A stretch of 36,565 bases of DNA from Chloroflexota bacterium (GCA_022565155.1 JADFKB010000015.1:1-36565); one strand, 5' to 3'; numbered from the stretch's first letter, positions 3,895-36,565 are shown. A program made the numbers and translations. The notes: a model not told the origin generated them from the letters alone.

Positions 3895-4812
3895 ATGCCT
3901 ATGGACAGCACCGTCATCCCCCTCGAAGAGCGGCCGCAGCCCCGCCAGCCGAAGCCACCCTGGCTGAAGGTGCGCTTCCCCGCAGGCGAACGCTACCAGC
4001 AGATCAAAAGCCTCCTGCGCCAGAACGAGCTCCACACCGTCTGCGAAGAAGCGCACTGCCCCAACATCGGCGAGTGCTTCAACAACGGCACCGCCACCTT
4101 CATGATCCTCGGCGATGTCTGCACCCGCGCCTGCGGCTTCTGCGCCGTCACCAGCGGCCGTCCCCAGCCGACGCTCGACGTGCTGGAGCCATACCGGCTG
4201 GCGCAGGCTGTACGTAAGCTAAACCTGGACTACGTCGTCATTACTTCCGTCAACCGCGACGACCAGCCCGACGGCGGCGCGGCGATCTTCGCCGGTTGCA
4301 TCAACGCCATCCGCCACGACAACCCCGACTGCCGCGTCGAAGTGCTGATCCCCGACTTCATGGGCAACTGGGGCGCGCTGGAGACGGTCGTGCGCGCGCA
4401 ACCGTTCGTGCTCAACCACAACATCGAGACCGTCCCGCGACTCTACAGTCGCGTCCGGCCCAAGGCGCGCTACGAACGCTCGCTCGAGCTGCTGCGCCGG
4501 GCAAAGGAGATCGACGCAACGATGCTCACCAAGTCCGGCATGATGGTCGGCCTCGGCGAGAGTGAGAGCGAGATCTTCGAGGTTATGGCCGGCCTGCGCG
4601 ACGTCGGCGTCGACATCGTCACGATCGGCCAGTACTTGCGCCCGAGCGCGAAGCACCTGCCCGTCGAACGCTACTACCCGCCGGCAGAGTTCCAACCGTT
4701 CGTGGAGCGCGGCCGCGACCTTGGCTTCCGCCACGTGGAAGCGGGGCCGCTCGTCCGCAGCTCCTACCACGCCCACAAGCAGGCGGGCATACCGGAGGCG
4801 AGCGCATCGTGA
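3895..4812 (+). CDS. lipA: Lipoyl synthase (radical SAM)
   Basis: CEEAHCPNIGECFNNGTATFMILGDVCTRACGFCAV (both 4Fe-4S motifs); KSGMMVGLGE; S at C-terminal RSSYHA. Confidence 0.97.
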   Translation: MPMDSTVIPLEERPQPRQPKPPWLKVRFPAGERYQQIKSLLRQNELHTVCEEAHCPNIGECFNNGTATFMILGDVCTRACGFCAVTSGRPQPTLDVLEPYRLAQAVRKLNLDYVVITSVNRDDQPDGGAAIFAGCINAIRHDNPDCRVEVLIPDFMGNWGALETVVRAQPFVLNHNIETVPRLYSRVRPKARYERSLELLRRAKEIDATMLTKSGMMVGLGESESEIFEVMAGLRDVGVDIVTIGQYLRPSAKHLPVERYYPPAEFQPFVERGRDLGFRHVEAGPLVRSSYHAHKQAGIPEASAS

Positions 4813-6242
4813 CCACGTACGACGTCGCCATCATCGGAGGCGGCCCCGGCGGTTACGTCGCAGCCATCCGCGCCGCCCAGCTCGGACTGAAGGCCGCCGT
4901 CATCGAGGAGGAGCGCGTGGGCGGCCTCTGCCTCAACTGGGGCTGCATTCCCAGCAAAGCGCTGCTCTGGAACGCCGAACTGGTCCATCTGTTCCAGGAG
5001 TCCAAGGACTTCGGCATCACCTACGATGCGCTGCACATCGACATGGGCGCCGCCATCGACCGCAGCCGCAAGGTCGTCGACCGCATGGTGCAGGGCGTCG
5101 AGTTCCTGCTCAAGAAGAACAAGGTCGCAGTCATCCCCGGTCGCGGGCGGCTGGCCGGCAAGAACGAGATTGTTATTGAGCCCGGCGGCGTGGCTGGCGA
5201 GCCGGGCGGCGCGGCCAACGGAGCCGGAGGCGATACGGTCGACGCCGGCAACATCATCATCGCCACCGGCGCCCACGCCCGCTCCCTCCCCGGCGTCGAG
5301 ATCGACGGGGAGACCGTCATCACCAGCCGCGAGGCGCTGCTGCTGCGCGAACCGCCGGAGAGCGTCGTCATCGTCGGCGGCGGGGCGGTCGGCGTCGAGT
5401 TCGCCTACTTCTACCGCGCCTACGGCTCCGATGTCACCATCATCGAGCTGCTCGACCGCCTCCTGCCACTCGAAGACGAAACGATCAGCAGCCAACTGGA
5501 GCGCGCCTTCAAGAAGCAGGGCATCGCCTACCGCACCGGCACGCAGGTTGAGGGCATCGATGTCGCGAACGGGCGAGCCACGGTCTCCATCGCCAAGAAC
5601 GGCCAACAGGAAGAGCTGGCGGCAGACAAGGTGCTGATCGGCATCGGCATGGCGGGCAACACCGACAGCCTCGGCCTCGAAGACGCCGGCGTCGCTGTCG
5701 AACACAGCTTCATCCAGATCAACGACCGCATGGCGACGAGCGTTCCCGGCGTCTACGCCATCGGCGATGTCACCGGCCGGCTACTGCTGGCCCACGTCGC
5801 CTCCGCCCAGGGCGTCATCGCCGTCGAGGCGATCGCCGGCCGCGAGCCGCCGCCGCTCGACTACGAGAAGATGCCGCGCTGCACCTACTGCCAGCCGCAG
5901 GTCGCCAGCCTCGGCCTCACCGAAGCGCAGGCGCGCGAACGCGGCATCGAGGTCAAGGTCGGCAGCTTCCCCTACCGCGGCAACGGCAAGGCGATCGCGA
6001 TGAACCGGCTGGACGGCGTCGCCAAGCTCGTCGCCGACGCCGCCACCGGCGAGATCCTCGGCTACCACATCATCGGCCAGGACGCGACCGAACTGCTGGC
6101 CGAGGCAGCGCTCGGCAGTGCGCTGGAGACGACGCCGCGCGAGCTGGGCTGGACCGTCCACGCCCACCCGACGCTCTCTGAGGTCGTCAAGGAAGCCGCT
6201 CTCGCCGTGAACGGCGAAGCGATCCATTTTTGGACAGAATGA
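4809..6242 (+). CDS. lpdA: Dihydrolipoyl dehydrogenase (E3)
   Basis: GTG start overlapping the lipA stop (GTGA). GGGPGGYVAAIRAAQLG, GGLCLNWGCIPSKALL, VYAIGDVTGR, HAHPTLSEVVKEAAL. Confidence 0.95.
   Translation: MTTYDVAIIGGGPGGYVAAIRAAQLGLKAAVIEEERVGGLCLNWGCIPSKALLWNAELVHLFQESKDFGITYDALHIDMGAAIDRSRKVVDRMVQGVEFLLKKNKVAVIPGRGRLAGKNEIVIEPGGVAGEPGGAANGAGGDTVDAGNIIIATGAHARSLPGVEIDGETVITSREALLLREPPESVVIVGGGAVGVEFAYFYRAYGSDVTIIELLDRLLPLEDETISSQLERAFKKQGIAYRTGTQVEGIDVANGRATVSIAKNGQQEELAADKVLIGIGMAGNTDSLGLEDAGVAVEHSFIQINDRMATSVPGVYAIGDVTGRLLLAHVASAQGVIAVEAIAGREPPPLDYEKMPRCTYCQPQVASLGLTEAQARERGIEVKVGSFPYRGNGKAIAMNRLDGVAKLVADAATGEILGYHIIGQDATELLAEAALGSALETTPRELGWTVHAHPTLSEVVKEAALAVNGEAIHFWTE
5178..5240 (+). 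repeat. In-frame tandem repeat, about 3 x 21 bp, inside lpdA
   Basis: gagcccggcggcgtggctggc / gagccgggcggcgcggccaac / ggagccggaggcgatacggtc, encoding EPGGVAG-EPGGAAN-GAGGDTV. Confidence 0.6.
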
Positions 6243-6311
6243 TGACACTTCTAAGGCTATCGTTATGTCAATCATAGAACAGCAACCCTTCTGCCTCCAG
6301 GCGTCGCTCAT

Positions 6312-6328
6312 CCCCGCCGTAGGCGGGG
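6312..6328. repeat. Intergenic hairpin CCCCGCC-GTA-GGCGGGG (lpdA-pdhA gap)
   Basis: Perfect 7-bp stem, 3-nt loop, read directly. Confidence 0.6.
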
Positions 6329-6347
6329 TCGCCATTGAGATAACACC

Positions 6348-7349
6348 ATGACACAGCTAGCAGACAAACCAACGGCGAAGGAACTCGACAGCAGCCAACT
6401 GATCGGCTTGCTGCGCCAGATGATGCTGATCCGCCGCTTCGAGGAGAAGGCGGCGGAGATGTACGCCAAGCAGCGCATCGCCGGCTTCCTCCACCTCTAC
6501 AACGGCGAGGAGGCCGTCGCCGTCGGCGCTATCTCCGCCCTCAACAGCGACGACCACATCTTCACTCACTACCGCGACCACGGCCACGCGCTCGCCCGCG
6601 GCATCGAGCCGCGCCGGATCATGGCAGAGTTATTTGGCCGCGAAACCGGCGTCAGCCGCGGCAAGGGCGGCTCCATGCACCTCTTCGACGTCGAGCGCTC
6701 CTTCATGGGCGGCTACGCCATCGTCGGCGGCCACCTGCCGCTCGCCTGCGGCATGGCGCTGGCCAACCAGCGGCTCGGCAACGGCCGCATCGTCCTCTGC
6801 ATCTTCGGCGACGGCGCCGTCAACGAAGGCGAGTTCCACGAATCGCTCAACCTCGCCGCCGTCTGGAAGCTGCCCGTCCTCTTCCTCTGCGAGAACAACT
6901 TCTACGGCATGGGCACCGACATCCGCCGCGTCTCCGCAGTCATCGAGATCTACAAACGCGCCGCCGCCTACGCCATGCCCGCTGAGCAGGTTGACGGCAT
7001 GAACGTGCTCGAGATGTATCAGGCGGTTCAGCGCGTGGCTCAGGGCGTTCGGGCCGGTAACGGTCCCGCCTTCCTGGAAGCGATCTGCTTCCGCTTCCGC
7101 GGCCACTCCATGGCCGACCCGGAGTTCTACCGCCGCAAGGAGGAGACCGAAAGGTGGCGTGAGCTCGACCCGATCACCACCTTCCACCGGAAGCTGGAGC
7201 AAGACGGCGTCATCGACGAGCCTGCGTTCCAGTCGCTCCAGGCTGAGATCGAAGAGATCGTCAACGAAGCCGTCCAGTTCGCCGCAGAGAGCCCGGAGCC
7301 GCCGCCGGAAGCGCTCTACGACGATGTCTACGCACAGGAGCGCGACTAG
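6348..7349 (+). CDS. pdhA: Pyruvate dehydrogenase E1 component, alpha subunit (thiamine pyrophosphate-dependent)
   Basis: MMLIRRFEEKAAEMY, GKGGSMHLF, GDGAVNEGEFHESLNLAAVWKLPVLFLCENN, FRFRGHSMADPEFYR. Confidence 0.92.
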   Translation: MTQLADKPTAKELDSSQLIGLLRQMMLIRRFEEKAAEMYAKQRIAGFLHLYNGEEAVAVGAISALNSDDHIFTHYRDHGHALARGIEPRRIMAELFGRETGVSRGKGGSMHLFDVERSFMGGYAIVGGHLPLACGMALANQRLGNGRIVLCIFGDGAVNEGEFHESLNLAAVWKLPVLFLCENNFYGMGTDIRRVSAVIEIYKRAAAYAMPAEQVDGMNVLEMYQAVQRVAQGVRAGNGPAFLEAICFRFRGHSMADPEFYRRKEETERWRELDPITTFHRKLEQDGVIDEPAFQSLQAEIEEIVNEAVQFAAESPEPPPEALYDDVYAQERD

Positions 7350-14425: not shown

Positions 14426-14568
14426 ACCTCTTCGTGAGCCAGTGCATTGTACACAGGCCCCAGATTCAGCGACAGCCTCGCTACGGGCTAGCGCGGTTGA
14501 CAACGCGCATAGGCGATAGTACATTCGACGTAGCTTGCGAGACGCGCCATACTTGCGGAGGTGCAAGG

Positions 14569-17028
14569 ATGCTGTTTGTACGGATCGCCCACGCCGCCGT
14601 CGTCGTCACGCTAATCGCCCTGATTGCCACCGCGCTGCTCTGGCCTCAGCTACGTGGCACCGCCCGCGCCGACAACACCGGCTTCCAATCGCCAAGCGAC
14701 ACCCACGCACCGGAAAACCAATGGGTCACACCGAGGCGCGCCTTTGAACTGGGCGTTGCCACGGCCAGCGCGATCGGCAACAAGCAAGGCTACTCCGCGT
14801 TCGGCTTCTCCGTTGCCGGTGGCGCATTTATCCTCGGCATCGCCGTCCAGGTAAACGCTAAAGCCCTGGACGCAAGCGGCTGTGATCTGCAGGTGACGTT
14901 ATCCGGGGAAGGCGGCAGTAATCCCAGCACCCCGCAGATTGCAGACCTCACAGACTCGTTCACTGATCACACGCTCGGTGGCAGCAACGACACCTGGGAC
15001 CGCGACTGGACGTCTGGCGAGTTCACCGACACCAACTTTGTTGTCACAGTCGAGTACATCAACACGGGTGGCTGTAACGACACAGATATCAGCCTGGACA
15101 CCCTCCGGGTGAACGTCTACTTCAAGTCGGTCACCCCAGGCGATCTCCACCCGCCCACGCTCAGCCAGCCGCCGAACGGGTGGAGCGACCCGAACAACGC
15201 ATTCGCAAGCGATACCGACTACGCCACCGCCTCCGGGAACGCCGACCAGGGCTACGCTAACTTCAACCTCTCAGTGCCCTCTCCGTCTATCATCACCGGC
15301 ATCGAAGTCGTGATCGAGGCCTTCTCCAGCGACCCCAGCGGCTGCCAGATCCAGGCGCGCGTCTCCGGCAACGGCGGCGACACCATCCCCAACTTCTCCA
15401 GCTTCCCCAAGGAAACCGCCGAGCTCACCGACACCGAGACGCTACACACCCTGGGCGGCCCAGAGGAGCTCTGGAACGGCACCTGGCTCGCCGCCAACTT
15501 CTCCAACACCAACTTCGCCCTGGAGCTGCACAACAACGACCCGGATCCCGGCAACAATGTGACCTGCACTGATGCCGCCACCACCTCTCTGAACCAGGTG
15601 CAAGTCCGCGTCTACTTCAAGCCTCTCCAACAGACTGGCAAGTCCTCACCCTCCGCCACGCCTGCGCCAAGCGAGTGGACAAATCCCGGCAACGCCTTCG
15701 CCAGCGACAACGCGGACGCCACCGGCCGCGCGGACAGCACCGCGACCGACGAACAGGCCTACGGCAATTTCGGCCTGTCGACGATCCCCACCTCGTCGCT
15801 AATCGTCGGCATCGAAGTCCAGGTTGAAGCCCACTCCGACGATCTCGGCAACGACTGCGCTCTGAATGTACAGATCTTCGGCCGCGGCGGCTTTACTGCT
15901 GCAGAGACCGCCAATCTCACCGTGGCAGATGACGATTACGTACTGGGCGGCCAGGAAGACCTCTGGGGCGCAACCTGGACGCCAAACGATTTCAGCGATG
16001 CCAACTTCGTTGTCAAAGTCACTGCGATCGATCCCGGCACCGACTGCGCGAACACTGCCGTGACATCGCTCGATCACATCCAGGTCAACGTCTTCTACAA
16101 GCAGATCGCCGACAGCGGGTTCAGGTCGCCATTAGCCACGGCCACGCCGAGCGAATGGACAGATCCCCAGAACGCATTCTCCGGCACCGACGGCAACTTG
16201 GACGCCACCGGCCGCGCGGACAGCACCGCGACCGACGAGCAGGCCTACGGCAACTTCGGGCTCTCCGTGCCCGCCGACTCGATCATTACCGGCATCGAGG
16301 TGCGCGCCGAAGCCCACTCCAGCGACGCCGGCGGCGCTTGCGAGTTGGATGTTGAGCTCTCCCCCGACGGAGGCGCAGGCTTCATCCTGGAGGAGAAGAC
16401 CGCTGTCCTCACCGGTTCGGACGTCGTCTACTCCCTCGGCGGCAGCAGCGACACATGGGGCGAAACCTGGTCGGCAGGCGACTTCAGCAACACGAACTTC
16501 GTCGTCAAAGTCACCGCAGTAGATCCCGGCGGTTGCCTGGACGCTGCCGTGACATCCTTAGATCACATTGAAGTGAACGTCTACTTCAAATCTTCCACCC
16601 CGCCGGTGACCAACACGGCGACCAGTACCAACACGCCCACGATCACCTCCACCCCAACGATCACGCCAACCGCCACCATCACACCGACACCGACCACCAC
16701 GGATACGCCGACGGCTACTATCACACCGACCGCCACGGATACGCCGACGGCCACCGCCACGCCGCCCAGCACCAACACGCCCACGCAGACAGCGACGCCC
16801 ACGCGGACGGCGACGCCCGTGAAGCTGCTGGGTGACGTCAACCTCGACACCTTCGTCAACAGCATCGATGCGCTGTTTATCCTGCAGTTTAACGCCCGCC
16901 TGCTCGGCACGTTGCCCAACGCAGCGAACGCAGAGGTAAACTGTGACGACGTGATCAACGCCCTGGATGCCGCGCTCATCCTCCAATTTGGCGCCAACTT
17001 CCTGACGGCTCTGCCCGGCTGCCCGTAG
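14569..17028 (+). CDS. Secreted surface protein: four ~160-aa repeats, Thr/Pro-rich stalk, C-terminal dockerin type I-like domain
   Basis: ATG at 14569 after GGAGGTGCAAGG; N-terminal hydrophobic signal; repeated '..W..P.NAF...AYGNFGLS...I.GIEV..EA...LGG..D.W..TW...FS..NF.V.V...SLD.I.VNVYFK'; TNTPTITSTPTITPTATITP linker; DVNLDTFVNSIDALFILQF / EVNCDDVINALDAALILQF EF-hand-like dockerin pair. Confidence 0.88.
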   Translation: MLFVRIAHAAVVVTLIALIATALLWPQLRGTARADNTGFQSPSDTHAPENQWVTPRRAFELGVATASAIGNKQGYSAFGFSVAGGAFILGIAVQVNAKALDASGCDLQVTLSGEGGSNPSTPQIADLTDSFTDHTLGGSNDTWDRDWTSGEFTDTNFVVTVEYINTGGCNDTDISLDTLRVNVYFKSVTPGDLHPPTLSQPPNGWSDPNNAFASDTDYATASGNADQGYANFNLSVPSPSIITGIEVVIEAFSSDPSGCQIQARVSGNGGDTIPNFSSFPKETAELTDTETLHTLGGPEELWNGTWLAANFSNTNFALELHNNDPDPGNNVTCTDAATTSLNQVQVRVYFKPLQQTGKSSPSATPAPSEWTNPGNAFASDNADATGRADSTATDEQAYGNFGLSTIPTSSLIVGIEVQVEAHSDDLGNDCALNVQIFGRGGFTAAETANLTVADDDYVLGGQEDLWGATWTPNDFSDANFVVKVTAIDPGTDCANTAVTSLDHIQVNVFYKQIADSGFRSPLATATPSEWTDPQNAFSGTDGNLDATGRADSTATDEQAYGNFGLSVPADSIITGIEVRAEAHSSDAGGACELDVELSPDGGAGFILEEKTAVLTGSDVVYSLGGSSDTWGETWSAGDFSNTNFVVKVTAVDPGGCLDAAVTSLDHIEVNVYFKSSTPPVTNTATSTNTPTITSTPTITPTATITPTPTTTDTPTATITPTATDTPTATATPPSTNTPTQTATPTRTATPVKLLGDVNLDTFVNSIDALFILQFNARLLGTLPNAANAEVNCDDVINALDAALILQFGANFLTALPGCP

Positions 17029-17072
17029 CCGGAGAGCGCGCGCGTCTAGCAACCGCGGTAGACACCAAGAAA

Positions 17073-17101
17073 GCCAGGCATGATGCGGCATGATGCCTGG
17101 C
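17073..17101. terminator. Stem-loop GCCAGGCAT-N11-ATGCCTGGC between convergent genes (candidate terminator)
   Basis: 9-bp perfect stem; read on the minus strand it is followed by TTTCTTGG; lies between the surface protein (+) and thiolase (-) ends. Confidence 0.5.
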
Positions 17102-17212
17102 CTTCCGCGCTCTCGCCCTGGCACGTGACCCGGCTCGGTCACGCGCGCTCAGTGTAGCTTCAGTCTACACGTTGAAAAATACAGCCCTGGTTTACGCGTG
17201 CGCGATACAACG

Positions 17213-18391
17213 TTAGTCCACGCGTTCAAATATCGTCGCGATGCCCTGGCCGCCGCCGATGCAGAGGCTGACCAGCCCGAAGCGGCCCTTGCTGCGCTCC
17301 AGCTCATACATCAGCTTCACGGTCAGGATCGCCCCCGTCGCACCCACAGGGTGGCCCAGCGCGATCGCCCCGCCGTTCGGGTTCGTCTTCTCCGGGTCGA
17401 GGCCGAGGACCTTGCTGCAGGCAGCCGCCACGGAGGCGAACGCCTCGTTCAGCTCCACCACGTCCATCTGGTCCACTTCCATGCCCGCCTTGTCCATCAC
17501 CTTGCGCACGGCCGGGATCGGGCCCATCCCCATCACCGCCGGCTCTACGCCTGCCTCCGCGCGAGCGACCATCCGCAGCCGCGGCTTGATGCCCAGCTCG
17601 TCGGCCTTCGTCCTACTCATCACCACAACGGCGGCCGCGCCGTCGTTGATGCCGCTGGCGTTGCCGGCGGTCACAACGCCGTCTTCCTTAAAGGCCGGCC
17701 GTAGCTTCGCCATCGACTCCATGTCGGCGTCCGGCCGCGGGTACTCGTCCGTATCGAAGATCTCCGTCTTCCGGCCGACCTTCACCTCCAGCGGCACGAT
17801 CTCGTCCCGGAACCTACCGGCCTCGATCGCGGCGCTGGCTCGTTGCTGGCTGCGCAGCGCCACCTCGTCCTGCTCCTCGCGCGTCACGCCGAACTTCTCC
17901 GCCAGGTTCTCGGCGGTGATACCCATGTGCTCTTTACTGAAGGGATCGCCCAACAGATGCAGAATGCCGTCCTCCAACTGGCCGTGTCCCAGCCGGTAGC
18001 CGGCGCGGGCACTGCGCACGTAGTACGGCATCATCGTCATGTTCTCCGCCCCGCCCGCGACGATGACCGATGCATCTCCCGACTGGATCCAACGAGCGGC
18101 CGTGTTAATCGCCTCCAAACCGCTGCCGCAGATGCGGTTCACTGTGTAAGCCGGCACTTCGATCGGGATGCCGGCCTTGACGGCGGCATAGCGGGAGATA
18201 TAGGCGTCCTCCATCACCTGCCCCACGCAGCCCAGGATCACCTGGTCTACCTGGTCCGGCGCCACACCGGCGCGAGATACGGCCTCCTTGAGCACGGCTG
18301 CGGCTAAGTCCGATGCCGGCATCTGCTGAAACGCGCCGCTGAGCTTGCCGATTGCCGTGCGGCAGCCGCTAACGAGCACAACCTCTTCCAT
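17213..18391 (-). CDS. Thiolase family protein (acetyl-CoA C-acetyltransferase)
   Basis: NRICGSGLEAINTAARWIQSGDASVIVAGGAENMT, NEAFASVAAACSKVLGLDPEKTNPNGGAIALGHPVGATGA, SLCIGGGQGIATIFE. Confidence 0.94.
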   Translation of the reverse strand: MEEVVLVSGCRTAIGKLSGAFQQMPASDLAAAVLKEAVSRAGVAPDQVDQVILGCVGQVMEDAYISRYAAVKAGIPIEVPAYTVNRICGSGLEAINTAARWIQSGDASVIVAGGAENMTMMPYYVRSARAGYRLGHGQLEDGILHLLGDPFSKEHMGITAENLAEKFGVTREEQDEVALRSQQRASAAIEAGRFRDEIVPLEVKVGRKTEIFDTDEYPRPDADMESMAKLRPAFKEDGVVTAGNASGINDGAAAVVVMSRTKADELGIKPRLRMVARAEAGVEPAVMGMGPIPAVRKVMDKAGMEVDQMDVVELNEAFASVAAACSKVLGLDPEKTNPNGGAIALGHPVGATGAILTVKLMYELERSKGRFGLVSLCIGGGQGIATIFERVD

Positions 18392-28552: not shown

Positions 28553-29481
28553 GCTTCGTCCAGCGACTCCGCCGCCTGATCCCGGGCCGAACAGCACCGG
28601 CCAGGCCCGTGCTCGTCGTCACCGATAGCACCGCCGACCTGCCTGCCCAGCTCGTCGATCAGCTCGGCATCACGGTCGTCCCCCTCCAGATCGCCTTCGG
28701 CCAGGAGAGCTTCGCCGACGGTGTCGACCTCACGAGCGAAGCGTTCTTCCAGCGCCTGCAAGAATCGGACGAACTCCCCACCACGTCGCAGCCATCTCTC
28801 GGCCAGTTCTTCCAGGTCTACGAGGCGCTGTGCGAACGGACCGATTCCATCCTCTCCATCCACCTCTCGTCCGGATTCTCCGGCACGCTGGCGACGGCGC
28901 AGCAGGCGGCCGCAGCAGGCGGCGAGCAGTGCCGCATCGAGGTGATCGACTCCACCACCGTCTCGATGGCGACGGGCTTCGCCGTCCTCGCCGCCGCCCG
29001 CGCAGCCCGCGACGGCGCAGACCTCGACGCCTGCGCCGAGATCGCCCGCTCCGTACTCAAACGGCAGCGCCTCGCCGTCATGCTCGATACGCTCGACTAC
29101 CTCCGGCGCGGCGGCCGCATCGGCCGCGCCCAAGCGTTCCTCGGCGGCCTGCTCCGGCTGAAGCCGATCCTCACCATCCGCAACGGCGAAGCGTCCCCTC
29201 TCTCCCGCGTCCGCACCCGCAAGAAGGCGATGGCCGAGCTGCTCCGCCTCTCCCTCGACCAGGGCAAGATCGACGAAGCCGCCATCATGCACGCCACCAG
29301 CCCTGACGACGCCCGCATGCTCGCCGATGAGATCGCCGCCCGTATGCCCGGCCTGCCCGTTCACATCGGCCGCATCGGACCGGTAATCGGCGTCCACGGC
29401 GGGCCGGGGCTGATCGGCATCGCTGTCGTCGCCAGCCAGGAGGAGGCGCAGGCAGGCTCCGGCGCAGAGACGGCGACGTGA
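28549..29481 (+). CDS. DegV family protein (FakB-like fatty acid-binding)
   Basis: VVTDSTADLPAQLVDQLGITVVPLQIAFG, TTSQPSLGQFFQVYE, SIHLSSGFSGTLATAQQAA; ATGA overlap with the FakA-like gene. Confidence 0.93.
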   Translation: MSFVQRLRRLIPGRTAPARPVLVVTDSTADLPAQLVDQLGITVVPLQIAFGQESFADGVDLTSEAFFQRLQESDELPTTSQPSLGQFFQVYEALCERTDSILSIHLSSGFSGTLATAQQAAAAGGEQCRIEVIDSTTVSMATGFAVLAAARAARDGADLDACAEIARSVLKRQRLAVMLDTLDYLRRGGRIGRAQAFLGGLLRLKPILTIRNGEASPLSRVRTRKKAMAELLRLSLDQGKIDEAAIMHATSPDDARMLADEIAARMPGLPVHIGRIGPVIGVHGGPGLIGIAVVASQEEAQAGSGAETAT

Positions 29482-31916
29482 CCACGGCACGCCGCACGGC
29501 CAAGCGCCCGCCGGACATGCTCGTCAGGCTCCGCAAGATTCTAGAGCTGGAGCGGAAGAGAGGCTACACAGATGCCGCCGTCGTCGGCGGCCTCGATAGC
29601 TTCCTCCGCGCCGCCCTCGCCGGCGACGGCCTGCCCAAGAACTCGTACGCCGCCCAGAGCGTCCGCCAGCTCCCCGCCGGCGGCTATCGCGCGCTCGGCA
29701 ACGAGAAGCGCCGTGATTGGCTCGACCAGACGATGCGCGGCCTCACCGGCACAGCAACGTCTGCCCGCCCCGCGCCAGCCGCACGGCCGCGGCGAAAGAC
29801 GCTTCCGCCCGCCAACGTCGATTCGCCGATCACCGCTCTCAGCGGCGTCAAGGCCGGCCTGGCCGCCAAGTTCGAGACACTGGGCGTCCGCACCATCCGC
29901 GACCTCCTCTACCTCTTCCCCCGCCGCCACAACGACTTCTCAAAGCTACGCAAGATCGGCGAACTCACACCCGGCGAGGACGAGACCGTGCGCGCGAGGG
30001 TCTGGAGCGCCGACCAAAAACGCCTGGGCCGCAGGATGGGCACGGAGGCATCAGTCGGCGACGAGTCCGGCATGATGAAGGTCGTGTGGTTCAACCAGCC
30101 GTTCATCGCCCGCCAGCTCCGCACCAACACAGAAGTCGTCCTCTCCGGCCGCGTCCGCCTCCACAACGGCCGCCCCTCGTTCGAGAACCCGGAGTGGGAA
30201 GTGCTCGGCAAGGACGAAACGCAGACGCATACGGGCCGCCTCATCCCCGTCTATCCGCTCACGAAAGGCATCACCGGCCGCAACCTGCGGCGGCTGATGG
30301 CGGCCGCGCTGGAGCGATACGTCGACGAGCTCGCCGACCCGCTGCCGACCGAGCTGCGCACACGCCTCGACCTGATCGATCTCCGCCCCGCCGTTCGCCA
30401 AGCTCACTACCCGGACGACAACGAGTCGCTCGCCGAGGCGCGCCGCCGCCTCGCCCTGGATGAGATGCTGCCGCTCCAGATCTCCGTGTTGCTGCGCCGC
30501 CGGGAGTGGCAGCAGCCTGGCAGCGCCGGCCCGCTCGTTCTGGAAGATACGCTTCGAAACGCCTACCTCGCTTCGCTCCCCTTCTCCCTCACAGCCGCCC
30601 AGCAAAAGTCGCTCGGCCAGCTCCTCGCTGACCTCCAGCGCGACGTGCCCATGAGCCGCCTGCTCCAGGGCGACGTCGGCAGCGGCAAGACCGTCGTCGC
30701 CGCGTGCGGCCTCCTCGCCGCCGTCGCCGAGTCGCGCCAGGCCGTGATGATGGCGCCGACGGAGATCCTCGCCACGCAGCACTTTCGCACCCTCTGCCAG
30801 CTCTTCGGCGCAGACGCCAACGACACCCCGATCGCCGAAGCAGCGCCGCCCTATCTCGAACGGCCCCTGCGCATCGCCATCCTCACCGGCAGCATGCGCA
30901 AGGCCGCGCGGACGGCCGTCTACGAACAGATCGAGGCCGGCGAGGTCGATATCGCGGTCGGTACCCACGCCCTGATCCAGGACCCCGTCACCATCCCGAA
31001 CCTCGGCTTCATCATCGTCGACGAGCAGCATCGCTTCGGCGTCATGCAGCGGGCGGCGCTGCGCGGCAAGTCCGACCGCTCCGTCCACATGCTCGTCATG
31101 ACCGCCACGCCCATCCCGCGCTCGCTCTACCTGACGCTCTTCGGCGACCTGGACGTCTCGATCATCGACGAGCTGCCGCCCGGCCGCAAGCCGATCCGGA
31201 CGCGCTGGTGGCCGCCCGACCGCCGCGACGAAGCCTACGTCTTCCTCCGCACCCAGGTCGATCTCGGCCGCCAGGCGTTCGTCATCTGCCCGCTCGTCGA
31301 AGCCTCCGGCGCAATACAGGCGAAGGCCGCCGTCGATGAGTTTGAGCGGCTGCGCACAGAGGTCTACCCCGACCTGCAGCTAGAGCTCATCCATGGCCGC
31401 ATGTCCGGCCGCGACAAGGACGCCGCCATGCGCCGCTTCCACAGCGGCGAGGCGCAGATCCTCGTCTCCACCTCCGTCGTCGAGGTCGGCATCGACGTCC
31501 GCAACGCCACCGTCATGCTGATCGAAGGCGCCGACCGCTTCGGCCTCGCGCAGCTCCACCAGCTTCGCGGCCGCGTCGGCCGCGGCGCCGACCAGTCCCA
31601 CTGCCTCCTCTTGTCCGAGAGCCCTTCGGCGGAAGCGCAGCAGCGGCTGCGGCTGATGGAGGAGACCTCGGACGGCTTCCAACTCGCCGAAGCCGACCTC
31701 CAGATGCGCGGCCCCGGCGAGTTCTTCGGCACCCGCCAGTCCGGCCTGCCCGACTTCCGCATCGCCAGCCTGCTCGACACCCGCCTGATCGAACTCGCCC
31801 GCACCGAGGCCGCCGCGATACTAGAAGCCGACCCCGATCTCCAGGCGCCGGAGCACGCCGCGCTCGCGCAGATCGTCGAGCGGCTGTACCAGCACGTCAG
31901 CGACGAAGTACACTAG
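29478..31916 (+). CDS. recG: ATP-dependent DNA helicase RecG
   Basis: LLYLFPRRHNDFSKLRKIGEL, RLLQGDVGSGKTVVAACGLLAA, MAPTEILATQHF, IIVDEQHRFGVMQR, MTATPIPRSL, QLHQLRGRVGRG; GTG start overlapping the DegV stop. Confidence 0.96.
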   Translation: MTTARRTAKRPPDMLVRLRKILELERKRGYTDAAVVGGLDSFLRAALAGDGLPKNSYAAQSVRQLPAGGYRALGNEKRRDWLDQTMRGLTGTATSARPAPAARPRRKTLPPANVDSPITALSGVKAGLAAKFETLGVRTIRDLLYLFPRRHNDFSKLRKIGELTPGEDETVRARVWSADQKRLGRRMGTEASVGDESGMMKVVWFNQPFIARQLRTNTEVVLSGRVRLHNGRPSFENPEWEVLGKDETQTHTGRLIPVYPLTKGITGRNLRRLMAAALERYVDELADPLPTELRTRLDLIDLRPAVRQAHYPDDNESLAEARRRLALDEMLPLQISVLLRRREWQQPGSAGPLVLEDTLRNAYLASLPFSLTAAQQKSLGQLLADLQRDVPMSRLLQGDVGSGKTVVAACGLLAAVAESRQAVMMAPTEILATQHFRTLCQLFGADANDTPIAEAAPPYLERPLRIAILTGSMRKAARTAVYEQIEAGEVDIAVGTHALIQDPVTIPNLGFIIVDEQHRFGVMQRAALRGKSDRSVHMLVMTATPIPRSLYLTLFGDLDVSIIDELPPGRKPIRTRWWPPDRRDEAYVFLRTQVDLGRQAFVICPLVEASGAIQAKAAVDEFERLRTEVYPDLQLELIHGRMSGRDKDAAMRRFHSGEAQILVSTSVVEVGIDVRNATVMLIEGADRFGLAQLHQLRGRVGRGADQSHCLLLSESPSAEAQQRLRLMEETSDGFQLAEADLQMRGPGEFFGTRQSGLPDFRIASLLDTRLIELARTEAAAILEADPDLQAPEHAALAQIVERLYQHVSDEVH

Positions 31917-31950
31917 CCCCGGTGGAGCCGATAGTTCTCCGTGGTAGCTA

Positions 31951-32436
31951 CTAGGGGTTAATCGACGATTGCTCTCGAATGGCCACGAACCTGCCTGCGA
32001 ACCCTTGGCTGTCTTCCCAGATTCCTACGATCTGAACTGATGAAATGACATCTGCTACGACCTCTATCGTAGACTGATCAAACTGCGCGGAGATGGCGAC
32101 AGCGTCGCGTTCGAACGACACGAATCCCGTCACCTCCGCTGAACGGCCTAGCACGGTACAGTCAAGTTCACCTTCGATGGCCGTGCTGATCTGATTGAAA
32201 ACACCGCTGCAGAAAAGAGATTCGCCGATCGAGTCCAATACCGGTCCATTATGAACGACGAGGCCAATACGCCAGGACCCTGTTACGTAATCTTGTTCTG
32301 CGGTTCCTGAGCGCAGCGCTATCAGGGATATCAGACCGGCGGTGAATAAGACGACCACTGCGCCAAGCAGTGTCACCGGCCACCCGGCACTCAGGATACT
32401 CACTCTGCGCGCCGAGTCGAGCCAGCGTCTCATCAT
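31951..32436 (-). CDS. Hypothetical protein with single N-terminal TM helix
   Basis: 161 aa; VTLLGAVVVLFTAGLISLIALRS followed by a soluble domain; no family recognised. Confidence 0.6.
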   Translation of the reverse strand: MMRRWLDSARRVSILSAGWPVTLLGAVVVLFTAGLISLIALRSGTAEQDYVTGSWRIGLVVHNGPVLDSIGESLFCSGVFNQISTAIEGELDCTVLGRSAEVTGFVSFERDAVAISAQFDQSTIEVVADVISSVQIVGIWEDSQGFAGRFVAIREQSSINP

Positions 32437-32511
32437 GCCATCATGGTACAGTACCGAGAGCTGTTCGCAGACTACGTCAGCTTAACCGCTGAGGATTGAG
32501 ACGGATACTGG

Positions 32512-34542
32512 TTGGACAGCGCTAGGCGTAACATCACAGTCTTTGGTCTCCTGCTGGCGCTCACCTTAGCGGGGTACGCTCAGTATGTCATCGGCAAGGC
32601 TAATCACTGGGCGGATGACTTGCCGCTTATCGCTTCCTTCGACGGCAAGTTGACATCGCTGTACCGCGGCGAGCAATCTGTTGCAGTAGCCATCCCTATC
32701 TTCGCCCTGGCGATGGCACTGTTCGCGTGGTCAGCCTGGTCTCTGCGGAACAAGTCAGAAGCGTCACACGGCGACCAGGAACCAGCATCCAAAACGCCGT
32801 CATCCACTGAGTCCCAGCGGTGGCATGGGTTAGCGCTCGTTGCGGGGGCTTTCGTCGCGCTGGCGGGTTGGAGCTATCTGATCGCAAGGCTCGCTACCGC
32901 TAGTTACGAAGGCTGGTATTTGGCCCTCTTCTTCTGCCTGCTGGCGCTCACAGCAGTTCTATTCGGTCTGTATGATCGCGTTCGTGGCAGCGACAACCCT
33001 CCACGGCTAGCTGTCCACTCTTGGGAATGTTTCGTTGTACTGGGGGCGATGGGATTGTTTGCCGGGTTGGTCGCCACTGACCTCACGAATTGGCGCTATG
33101 CGACCCTCGGTGACGACGGAACGTTTTTCATAGTTGCCCGGGATATCGTCAACGGAGAAAGGCAGCTCAATCTGTTCAGCCAGGTAGGACCGGCCGGAAA
33201 CCATCCACTCCTTAGCTCTGCGTATCAGGCGGCGGTCATGGACGTGGCTGGCGTGAACATCTTCGGTTGGAAGCTGGCGACGCTGCTCCTTCTGCTAGCC
33301 ACGATACCCTTGTTCTATCTGCTGATTCGGGCGATGACCAACGCGCGAACCGCTGTCTTCGCCACTGCGGTACTCGCCTTCTCGCACTACCTGCTCGGTT
33401 ACGCTCACACTGGCTACGACAACGTTTTCCCTCTACTACCAACCGTTCTCTCGTTCTGCCTGTTCGTGGCAGGGAGACGCAGATCCAGCCTCATTCTCAT
33501 ATTCTGTGCTGGTGCGGTCGCGGGCCTAGGCTTCTACACGTTCTTTTCGGGAAGAGCCGCGATCGTCATTCTGGCGCTCGTGCTGCTGTTCCTAGGCCGA
33601 AAACACTGGCGCCCGGCGACGGTCATCCCAATCACAGCCGGCTTTGCGTTGGCCGTAGCCCCTCTCTTCGCCGTCGAAGGCTGGGGCGTGATCAGCGAAA
33701 CTCTGCGTGAATCTCAGTCGTCGAATAAGACGCCTATCGAGACGATCTCCAGCTTCGCGGCGACCGCTCCACGAGTGTTCCTCGCCTTCAATTTCAACCC
33801 GTACCCGAAGCACTTCGTATCTGGCTCCTTACTCGATGACATCTCGGCGCCACTGGCGCTTCTAGGCCTAGCCTACACCGCGACCCGAGTACGAGAGGAG
33901 CGGTACCGGTTTCTTCTCATCTGGTTCCTCGTCGCGATTGTGGTGACGGGCCTGTTTCACCCACGACAGACAGAGATCAACAGCCGTCTGCACTACGTAC
34001 TGCCTCCCATGGCCGCATTCGCCGGTCTGGCTCTTGACCGTATCGTTGAGATGCTGCCAAGGTTGTTTCCGAGGCCTAGCATTCAGCCCGCGCTAGTGGC
34101 CTTGTGCGCCATCGGAGTCCTGCCTGCGATCCTCGGCCTCAACATTTACCGTCACTGGGAGGTTAGCCCCTCTGAGCTTCCGGTACCGAACGCTGCCCTA
34201 GTTCTGAGGGAGGCGCAGCGCCCGGCCTGTGATCTACCGGGCCTGCGGTCAGCGGTCTTCGCGCCACGGCCGTTTCCTGTGATGCCCTTGGTGTTCGAGT
34301 TCTATGAATGGGAGGGTAGAGAACCACTCCTCTTTCGCTTCGGCGACCCTCCTGAGGTCTACCGATCGGCTATCGCGTCTGGCAGCATAGGCTGCGTCAT
34401 TGTTGCCGAACCGCACACAAGAGAGGCACAAACGAGCGTTGCTTACTTGACGGAGTTGGCCGAAGGAACCAGTGCGATTATCCAGGAAGTTTCTGACGCG
34501 TCCGGCTTTACGACGCTGCTGGTTCTGAGGCTAACCAAGTGA
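32512..34542 (+). CDS. Polytopic membrane protein, GT39/PMT-like glycosyltransferase
   Basis: 676 aa with many TM segments; GDDGTFFIVARDIVNGERQLNLFSQVGPAGNHPLLSSAYQAAVMDVAGVNIFGWKLATLLLLLATIPLFYLLIRAM resembles PMT_2-type topology; TTG start. Confidence 0.65.
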   Translation: MDSARRNITVFGLLLALTLAGYAQYVIGKANHWADDLPLIASFDGKLTSLYRGEQSVAVAIPIFALAMALFAWSAWSLRNKSEASHGDQEPASKTPSSTESQRWHGLALVAGAFVALAGWSYLIARLATASYEGWYLALFFCLLALTAVLFGLYDRVRGSDNPPRLAVHSWECFVVLGAMGLFAGLVATDLTNWRYATLGDDGTFFIVARDIVNGERQLNLFSQVGPAGNHPLLSSAYQAAVMDVAGVNIFGWKLATLLLLLATIPLFYLLIRAMTNARTAVFATAVLAFSHYLLGYAHTGYDNVFPLLPTVLSFCLFVAGRRRSSLILIFCAGAVAGLGFYTFFSGRAAIVILALVLLFLGRKHWRPATVIPITAGFALAVAPLFAVEGWGVISETLRESQSSNKTPIETISSFAATAPRVFLAFNFNPYPKHFVSGSLLDDISAPLALLGLAYTATRVREERYRFLLIWFLVAIVVTGLFHPRQTEINSRLHYVLPPMAAFAGLALDRIVEMLPRLFPRPSIQPALVALCAIGVLPAILGLNIYRHWEVSPSELPVPNAALVLREAQRPACDLPGLRSAVFAPRPFPVMPLVFEFYEWEGREPLLFRFGDPPEVYRSAIASGSIGCVIVAEPHTREAQTSVAYLTELAEGTSAIIQEVSDASGFTTLLVLRLTK

Positions 34543-34701
34543 GTGAGACCGTACCCAGATAGGAAATCTGTCCCACCAGCTACGGCACAGAGAGCCCCCG
34601 GTGCTGTTCCCGGCTCCACCTGAGGCGATTCCTCAGAAAGGGAACATGAACTATACTAAGAACGCCCGAACACGGCATCCACCACGGAGGTGTAGTGACA
34701 A

Positions 34702-35559
34702 GTGCCAGGATTCTCATTCCGCCGCCTGATCGGCGGCGTGCCCCTCGGCTACCGATTACGGAGACGCTGGCAGTGGAGCCGCCCGCTCTCGCTGCCCCAG
34801 TACATCGCCGGAACGCCCTTTATCGACGGCACTGGCCCGAAAGACTTCTTTCTGCCGCCCAACCCCGCTACGCTCGCTGTGGCCGCGCAGGAAGCAACGC
34901 AACCCGTCGAGGAGATCCTCGCCCGCCTAACACAGACCGATCAGATCGCTGACGCCCAACTCTACTATCGATCCGCTCGGGATAAGTTTGGCGAGCGCTG
35001 GCGATACGCGGACATACTCACCACCCTCTGGGCCGCCGCCACGCTCGGCTCCCCGAAGACCTACCTCGAGATCGGCGTGCGAACCGGCCGTAGCGCGGCA
35101 GTCGTAGGCGCAATATCGCCGAGCTGCGACATCTACGGGTTCGATCTTTGGACGGAGGGATATGGCGGCTACGACAACCCTGGACCTGATTTCGTACGCG
35201 ATGAACTCCGCTCGGTGGGCCACACGGGCAGCGTGACGCTCGTATCCGGCGACAGCAGCAAGACGCTCGCGCCGTTCTTGGCGGAGCGCCCCGATCTCTA
35301 CTTCGACCTTATCGCCATCGACGGCGACAAATCTATCCGCGTCGCCTCCAGCGATTTCGCCAACGCCCTGCCCCGCCTCAAGGTCGGCGGCATCGTCGTT
35401 TGCGACGACATCTTCCTCGTTCCGCACCTGGAGCGCATCTGGCATGATGTCATTAGACGAGACGCCCGCTACGTGCACTGGCAGTTCACGCAAGGCGCCG
35501 TCGGCGTCGTTGCCGCCGTCCGTATGTCCGATGGCCCTCTCCACGCCCGAGATTTCTAG
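34702..35559 (+). CDS. Class I SAM-dependent methyltransferase (Methyltransf_24-like)
   Basis: KTYLEIGVRTGRSAAVVGAISPSCDIYGFDLWTEGYGGYDNPG...VTLVSGDSSKTLAPFL...FDLIAIDGDKSIRVASSDFANALPRLKVGGIVVCDDIF; GTG start with upstream GGAGGT. Confidence 0.82.
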   Translation: MPGFSFRRLIGGVPLGYRLRRRWQWSRPLSLPQYIAGTPFIDGTGPKDFFLPPNPATLAVAAQEATQPVEEILARLTQTDQIADAQLYYRSARDKFGERWRYADILTTLWAAATLGSPKTYLEIGVRTGRSAAVVGAISPSCDIYGFDLWTEGYGGYDNPGPDFVRDELRSVGHTGSVTLVSGDSSKTLAPFLAERPDLYFDLIAIDGDKSIRVASSDFANALPRLKVGGIVVCDDIFLVPHLERIWHDVIRRDARYVHWQFTQGAVGVVAAVRMSDGPLHARDF

Positions 35560-35680
35560 CGCAAGGCCGCACCTGGCTACGCAGAACGCCTCTCGGTGCG
35601 CCGGAGGTTCCCGGACTGTGGCAAAGGCCCTGTGCCGCAACGCGCAACCGCGCGCGCGTCGCAGCCGTTGGTAGCCGTGT

Positions 35681-35815
35681 CCGCCTGATCGAACTCGCCC
35701 GCACCGAGGCCGCCGCGATACTAGAGGCCGACCCCGATATCCAGGCGCCGGAGCACGCCGCGCTCGCCAAGACTGTCAAGCGGCTGTACCGCACATCAGC
35801 GACGAAGTACACTAA
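35681..35815 (+). pseudogene. Decayed duplicate of the recG 3' end
   Basis: ccgcctgatcgaactcgcccgcaccgaggccgccgcgatactag... aligns to recG 31781-31916 with 9 substitutions and one 1-nt deletion by my count; the deletion shifts frame before the stop. Confidence 0.92.
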
Positions 35816-35869: not shown

Positions 35870-36565
35870 ATGTCCTTTCCCCTCTACGTCCTCACCAGCT
35901 CGGCCATCGCCGCCGTCACGATGCTGGCCGTGCTCTCGCTCTCCGGCCGCCGCTGGCTCGCCGTCCTCGCCGCCTTCGCCGGCGCCACCGCCCTGATCCT
36001 TATCCACGGCCCGCTCTACTTCGACTTCTACGCCGACGACGCCTACATCACCCTCCGCTACTCCCAGCACCTCGCCGACGGCCTCGGCCCCAACTGGAAC
36101 AGCGAAGGCCGCGTCGAAGGCTACACCACCTTCCTCTGGATGGGCACGCTTGCCGGCCTCGCCAAGCTCGGCGTCGATCTCGTCGACGCCTCGCGCGTCC
36201 TCGGCTTCCTTTCGCTGCTCGCCACCTTCGCCGCCGTCTACCGCATCTGGCGGCTCTGGAGCGGCGAACAGCCGGAGAGCGGCCTGCGCAGCCCCGCCCT
36301 CCTCGCCGCCGCGCTGCTCGGCCTCGCCCTCACGGACGGCGTCGCCTTTTGGGGCTTCTCCGGCATGGAGACGCCGCTCTTCATGGCCCTCCTCACCTGG
36401 AGCGCCTACCTGTATATGGCCGAACGGCGCGGCGGGCTGCGCGAGCGGCGCGGCGGCCGCATCCCCTGGTCCGCGCTCGCCCTCGCCGCCACCGCCATGA
36501 CGCGGCCGGAGGGCCTGATCGCGGCCGGCGTCACCGGCCTCTTCGTCCTGTTCGATGCTTCCACC
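35870..36565 (+). CDS. Membrane glycosyltransferase (GT39/ArnT-like or arabinofuranosyltransferase-like), 3' truncated by window edge
   Basis: MSFPLYVLTSSAIAAVTMLAVLSLSGRRWLAVLAAFAGATALILIHGPLYFDFYADDAYITLRYSQHLADGLGPNWNSEGRVEGYTTFLWMGTLAGL...; DDAYIT.RY...L..G.G..(W)N..RVEGYT.FLW is a recognised pattern. Open to the last base; absent from the ORF track. Confidence 0.8.
   Translation, partial: MSFPLYVLTSSAIAAVTMLAVLSLSGRRWLAVLAAFAGATALILIHGPLYFDFYADDAYITLRYSQHLADGLGPNWNSEGRVEGYTTFLWMGTLAGLAKLGVDLVDASRVLGFLSLLATFAAVYRIWRLWSGEQPESGLRSPALLAAALLGLALTDGVAFWGFSGMETPLFMALLTWSAYLYMAERRGGLRERRGGRIPWSALALAATAMTRPEGLIAAGVTGLFVLFDAST

Follow-up and report, generated by a model that had tools for sequence, protein, structure and literature searches.

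An accessory cassette behind a duplicated recG tail, and recurrent gene-tail copies, in a family of uncultured Chloroflexota

Background

Insertion with long target duplication was reportedly described in Helicobacter pylori by Nobusato et al. 2000. It is known from two H. pylori genomes and often concerns restriction-modification genes (PMC1643837; PMC3031569). Homology-facilitated illegitimate recombination has been proposed to explain displaced gene ends in the T6SS loci of V. cholerae (PMC5361080). Cis-mobilizable elements (CIMEs) lack an integrase but retain att repeats at gene ends, and their accretion takes place at gene 3' ends (PMC5704250).

How single accessory genes come in when neither a transposase nor an integrase is involved has been little documented beyond a few competent species. 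Here we describe a locus at which the 3' end of recG stands on both sides of an accessory segment. The DNA examined, called the window below, is the whole of contig C22 (36,565 bp) of a Chloroflexota genome, G000 (2.8 Mb, 185 contigs), and we compare it with other genomes of the same family. Feature coordinates are collected in Table 1.

Table 1. Features at the recG locus, in window coordinates
Feature	Position	Strand	Basis
recG, complete	29478..31916	+	812 aa open frame; 66-75% identity to RecG of family members
recG tail, proximal copy, in frame, stop included	31781..31916	+	repeat search; alignment with four relatives
Insert (cargo), absent here in relatives	31917..35680		empty site in G001, G002 and G004; drop in GC and GC3
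Hypothetical protein, 161 aa, possible membrane anchor	31951..32436	-	without Pfam match
PMT_2 (GT39-like) membrane glycosyltransferase, 676 aa	32512..34542	+	Pfam PF13231, E 5e-8
Methyltransf_24 methyltransferase, 285 aa, multi-copy family	34702..35559	+	Pfam PF13578, E 6e-16
Right end of insert, unassigned, as far as the distal recG tail	35560..35680		no match among the other loci compared
recG tail, distal truncated and frameshifted copy	35681..35815	+	93% identity; derived at 6 of 10 differences against relatives
Native gene following recG, truncated by the end of the contig; exported or membrane protein	35870..36565	+	60-71% identical orthologues behind recG in G001, G002 and G004

Results

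The last 136 bp of recG recur in direct orientation at an offset of 3900 bp (BLASTN/repeat search). With 93% identity over 135 bp and an E of ~1e-53 this is the one outstanding direct repeat on the contig, and it is far beyond chance. Exact alignment gives nine substitutions between the copies (31826, 31839, 31868, 31869, 31873, 31874, 31878, 31896 and 31916) and a single deleted base in the distal copy, at 31891. Read in the recG frame, the distal copy has L>I, Q>K, I>T and E>K and then a frameshift. To the left of 31781/35681 similarity stops sharply, the copies being without extended resemblance there, and beyond the recG stop codon it is little and fading. The initial 45 bp of the repeat are identical in both copies, and six of the ten differences cluster inside 24 bp, a clustering that is not significant (P 0.14). 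In four relatives, the state found at 31826, 31869, 31874, 31878, the deletion at 31891 and 31896 is that of the proximal copy only; relatives are mixed at the remaining 4 of the 10 differences, and at 0 of 10 is the distal state alone backed. Since the relatives match the proximal copy only at six differences and the distal copy only at none, the distal tail is the decaying one; this polarity does not say which of the two tails was the resident copy. A first-pass annotation, made by a model from the sequence alone, had reported the duplicated recG end with nine substitutions and one deletion, had named three of the amino acid changes (Q>K, I>T and E>K) and the frame shift, and had judged that the distal copy looks like decaying debris; the alignment returns the same count, adds L>I and agrees on the decay, and the comparison of the two regions that it had proposed as a check gave the direct repeat described above.

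We consider it very improbable that the repeat is an artefact of metagenome assembly in which two strains were joined at a repeated recG tail. The number of contigs and an estimated contamination of ~2% would leave room for such an error, but the copies differ at ten positions, the distal copy has its own frameshift, and equivalent scars are found at other genes in separately assembled genomes of the family.

The comparison set consists of family members from other genera, with RecG ~66-75% identical, and includes no genome of the same genus. The recG site is readable in four of these genomes (G001-G004), the recG end being unreadable in G005. In three of the four (G001, G002 and G004) the next gene after recG, at a distance of ~10-45 bp, is the orthologue of the 35870 gene, which thus adjoins recG directly in the family. 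In G003 recG is directly followed by genes that we take to be DUF402-like and argS-like, and these sit further downstream in G001. The hypothetical, PMT_2 and methyltransferase genes are absent from the recG site in G001-G004, and none of these four genomes has a second recG tail. Because both cargo and second tail are missing there, the insertion belongs to the lineage of G000. The empty site that the first-pass annotation had proposed to look for is therefore present in three relatives, and the arrangement that it had named as fatal to its reading, all relatives carrying both tails, is not the one observed. Its assignment of the gene at 35870 to the GT39-like proteins is not confirmed, as neither the part present nor the full-length G002 orthologue has a Pfam match. 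G001 and G002 each have two tandem paralogues of this gene and G003 has none (L033, L034), which makes the interval between recG and argS variable on its own account.

Between the tail copies lie 3,764 bp with a GC content of 55-64%, against 69-71% in the flanks, and a GC3 of 0.61-0.77, against 0.89-0.94, so that the GC and codon-usage comparison suggested in the first-pass annotation sets the insert below its surroundings in both. That annotation had placed a hypothetical membrane protein, a GT39-like protein and a methyltransferase in this interval; Pfam bears out the last two, and the first is a possible membrane anchor only. A relative of the 161-aa hypothetical protein was sought in 294 genomes of the class and none was found, and relatives of the PMT_2 protein within the order have 37-42% identity. 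By Pfam the insert holds no restriction enzyme or DNA methylase, only PMT_2 and Methyltransf_24. A Phage_integrase domain was matched neither in the insert nor elsewhere on the contig, in agreement with the earlier remark that no integrase is visible; seven matches lie elsewhere in G000, none of them on the contigs of the other scars studied. The 36,565-bp contig contains no tRNA. Elsewhere in the window, a direct repeat of 120-125 bp (82%) at 15655-16259 lies inside an exported-protein-like open frame (14434-17028) and is probably a domain repeat.

The Methyltransf_24 family has five copies in G000, more in G001, G002, G004 and G005, and few outside. Direct repeats stand on both sides at 4 of 14 methyltransferase loci. 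One of them, 50 bp long and in G001, comes from the 3' end of a gene for an MBL-fold hydrolase, at a locus without a clean empty site, its downstream genes varying among relatives; another, in G000, is a fragment resembling a tRNA 3' half, read by eye and not called by ARAGORN. An Rfam search of L159, L161 and L162 gave no match. In the tree the methyltransferase of C22 pairs with a G004 copy at a different locus (100/100), and the other G000 copies are 50-61% identical to it. As its flanks match no other locus compared, there are no shared element ends. The G004 pairing, the distance of the paralogues and the unmatched flanks led us to reject recent transposition of the gene; phage carriage was rejected as well, with one distant relative (43%) in viral contigs. 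The tree shows the methyltransferase copies to be old paralogues; the gene is common cargo and not a recent transposon.

Gene-tail duplication is recurrent in the genomes of this family, so that the single recG case of the first-pass annotation, real in itself, has counterparts, and judging from the loci compared it is not tied to methyltransferase cargo. In G000, G001, G002 and G004, genes unrelated to one another are followed by tail copies of ~35-540 bp, and the cargo is ordinary. On G000 contig C183, a CaiB-like gene has a second copy of its 3' end (189 bp, 87%) beyond a small insert, and a thioesterase-like gene has one of its 3' part (540 bp, 95%) beyond a luciferase-like gene. Other tail copies belong to a ComEC-like gene in G002 (71 bp), a nitroreductase-like gene in G004 (46 bp) and a VWA gene in G001, and a kinase-like gene in G004 (L202, G004:C4, 14468-17779) has copies at both ends. 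This kinase-like gene lies at 16490-17392; its start is copied over 228 bp upstream of an insert of two genes, and 53 bp of its end recur downstream. In L161 (G000:C183), with the methyltransferase set on the + strand, four copies of ~90-120 bp (4164-4283, 5194-5286, 6291-6410 and 6836-6953) resemble the start of a phosphoglycerate-mutase-like gene and lie at insert borders, beside the duplicated CaiB-like and thioesterase-like ends.

By one automatic rule, a tail copy within ~4 kb downstream was found for 12 of 670 genes in samples of the family genomes, or nine after removal of tandem paralogues, two of them doubtful (L219, L229). The same rule gave 2 of 365 genes, one of them weak, in five genomes of other families; L208 in G011 is a tail copy outside the family. 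These rates are drawn from genome samples and not from whole genomes, and the excess in the family over other families is no more than suggestive. We excluded L254, a repeat upstream of the gene, and L230, L253 and L261, which are paralogous genes.

Some of the repeats have almost no cargo. At ~1341-1560 of L179 (G000:C8) the last ~66 bp of an acetolactate-synthase-like gene form three tandem copies that are set apart by spacers of 9 bp and hold no cargo, and in L197 a gene tail occurs twice at a spacing of 283 bp, almost without cargo. Duplication might therefore come first: the recG tail would have been duplicated as a short tandem, and unrelated DNA would later have entered between the tails or replaced the DNA there. 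This order calls for two events, independent of each other, at a single site, and at many genes, and none of the relatives has two recG tails lacking cargo. We therefore regard this order as unlikely.

Repeats of tRNA ends also flank inserts in these genomes (L191, L226, L228, and L200 with recombinase remnants), and these inserts may be ordinary integrase products. One tRNA-Gly-like end flanks 8.3 kb with recombinase fragments in G004 (L200, G004:C2, 3562-11936), and the same end flanks 3.5 kb with no obvious recombinase in G000 (L228, G000:C42, 2063-5642).

The locus behind the VWA gene, the most informative one, could be compared across six genomes, G003 (L286, G003:C78:4000-10270) and its counterparts L287-L291, which are G000, G005, G002, G004 and G001 in that order. 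In G001, G002 and G004 the gene is followed by a Y1-type (RAYT-like) transposase gene and then a tail copy. G005 has a PPOX-like gene and no tail copy, and G000 has a lipoprotein-like gene and then PPOX, again with no tail copy. In G003 the order is PPOX, a truncated tail, the lipoprotein-like gene and a second truncated tail, so that both G003 cargo genes adjoin the same VWA gene in relatives that are free of scars. Tail copies from different events do not share one left end. Gene conversion between the tail copies is likely in G001, because the distal tail there is hardly worse than the proximal one though the RAYT insertion appears to be shared across genera; repeat identity is no clock.

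Discussion

The recG insertion is real and well supported, and as a single case it is modest. We favour, with moderate confidence, the gain of a cassette by recombination that is anchored in the conserved gene and has an illegitimate far end. In the lineage of G000, an accessory cassette of 3.76 kb was gained between recG and its native neighbour, most likely from incoming DNA that bore a recG-tail-like end adjoining the cargo. One junction would have arisen by homologous recombination inside the recG tail, keeping recG whole, so that the insertion is tolerated. The other would have been illegitimate, ~136 bp before the resident recG stop, so that the resident tail was left as a truncated copy and, being under no selection, began to decay. 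Such insertions would be seen at gene ends because the gene is left intact there. DNA uptake may have been the route of entry: DprA is present in 6 of 6 family genomes and ComEC in 4 of 6, which would permit uptake, a weak hint since both are present in bacteria without natural competence in routine culture. The homologous anchor is backed at the VWA locus, since in G000 and G005 the cargo of G003 follows the same VWA gene. At recG it is inferred only, since a donor type, with recG followed by the same cargo, was not found in the genomes compared, and this is the main gap. The first-pass annotation had offered cassette exchange by homologous recombination as its alternative, and this comes closer to what the VWA comparison suggests.

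Its first choice had been a genomic-island insertion at the recG 3' end. From that proposal we retain the insertion, the empty site and the decaying distal copy; a classical site-specific island with its integrase was rejected, there being neither integrase domain nor tRNA on the contig. The main rival is a decayed, CIME-like element: a tyrosine recombinase would have integrated it at the recG 3' end, the integrase would then have been lost, the tails would be attL and attR, and the incoming att would have restored recG. We hold this to be possible and rather unlikely. The anatomy fits, with a gene 3' end restored and the old end displaced, the identical first 45 bp of the repeat are like an att core, and these genomes also hold inserts flanked by tRNA 3' ends, once in G004 with recombinase remnants. 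Accretion of CIMEs would also give tail arrays of the G003 type (PMC5704250). Against this stand the lack of a Phage_integrase match in the insert and on the contig, and the many unrelated gene ends per genome, for which as many different integrases would be needed. Among the VWA events, moreover, the tail copies have different left ends, and site-specific elements should have left tail repeats in G000 and G005 too, unless these were lost, yet the VWA cargo genes there are without them. The pattern in G003 is the one to be expected from recombination with an anchor in a conserved gene and an illegitimate junction at the far side, and this reading fits the VWA locus better than the island reading does.

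More tentatively, we propose that the family uses the 3' ends of conserved single-copy genes as routine anchors, at which accessory genes are stacked singly, with one truncated tail per event and without a dedicated recombinase. Tail copies outside the family, such as that in G011, count against the favoured reading of the recG cassette. If the proposal is true, the tails are a readable record of gene gain, and recombination between the copies would allow clean loss. If the tail scars are recombination footprints, gene-gain events at housekeeping genes of uncultured bacteria could be marked and ordered from assemblies alone; the locus of the G003 array is one at which scars and arrangements free of them can be read together with the order of gain. 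A recurrent scar at the housekeeping genes of an uncultured family merits a systematic survey.

Conclusions

The recG case shares with insertion with long target duplication an insert missing in a related genome, a long direct repeat that derives from the target and varies in length, and the lack of transposase and integrase: the site is empty in G001, G002 and G004, and the repeat is a 136 bp tail at 93%. Accounts of that system mainly concern restriction-modification genes, whereas the cargo here is a glycosyltransferase and a methyltransferase of non-DNA type; in addition, the repeats here are gene ends, and the relatives are other genera and not strains. With the T6SS effector arrays the family would share an anchor in a conserved gene, new DNA adjacent to it, an old gene end pushed downstream, and repeated events that build arrays. 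Those arrays consist of effector-immunity modules under known selection; here, in contrast, the anchors are housekeeping genes such as recG, the cargo is mixed, and the process is read from sequence. As in a CIME, a gene 3' end is repeated on both sides of the insert, an integrase is lacking and tandem arrays are possible. Unlike the case of a CIME, neither an integrase (by Phage_integrase matches on the contig), a relaxase nor a related intact element was found for the recG site, many unrelated tails serve as targets in one genome, and repeat lengths vary widely. Membership in any of the three systems is not proved; in the way it works, the finding is close to insertion with long target duplication and to homology-facilitated illegitimate recombination.
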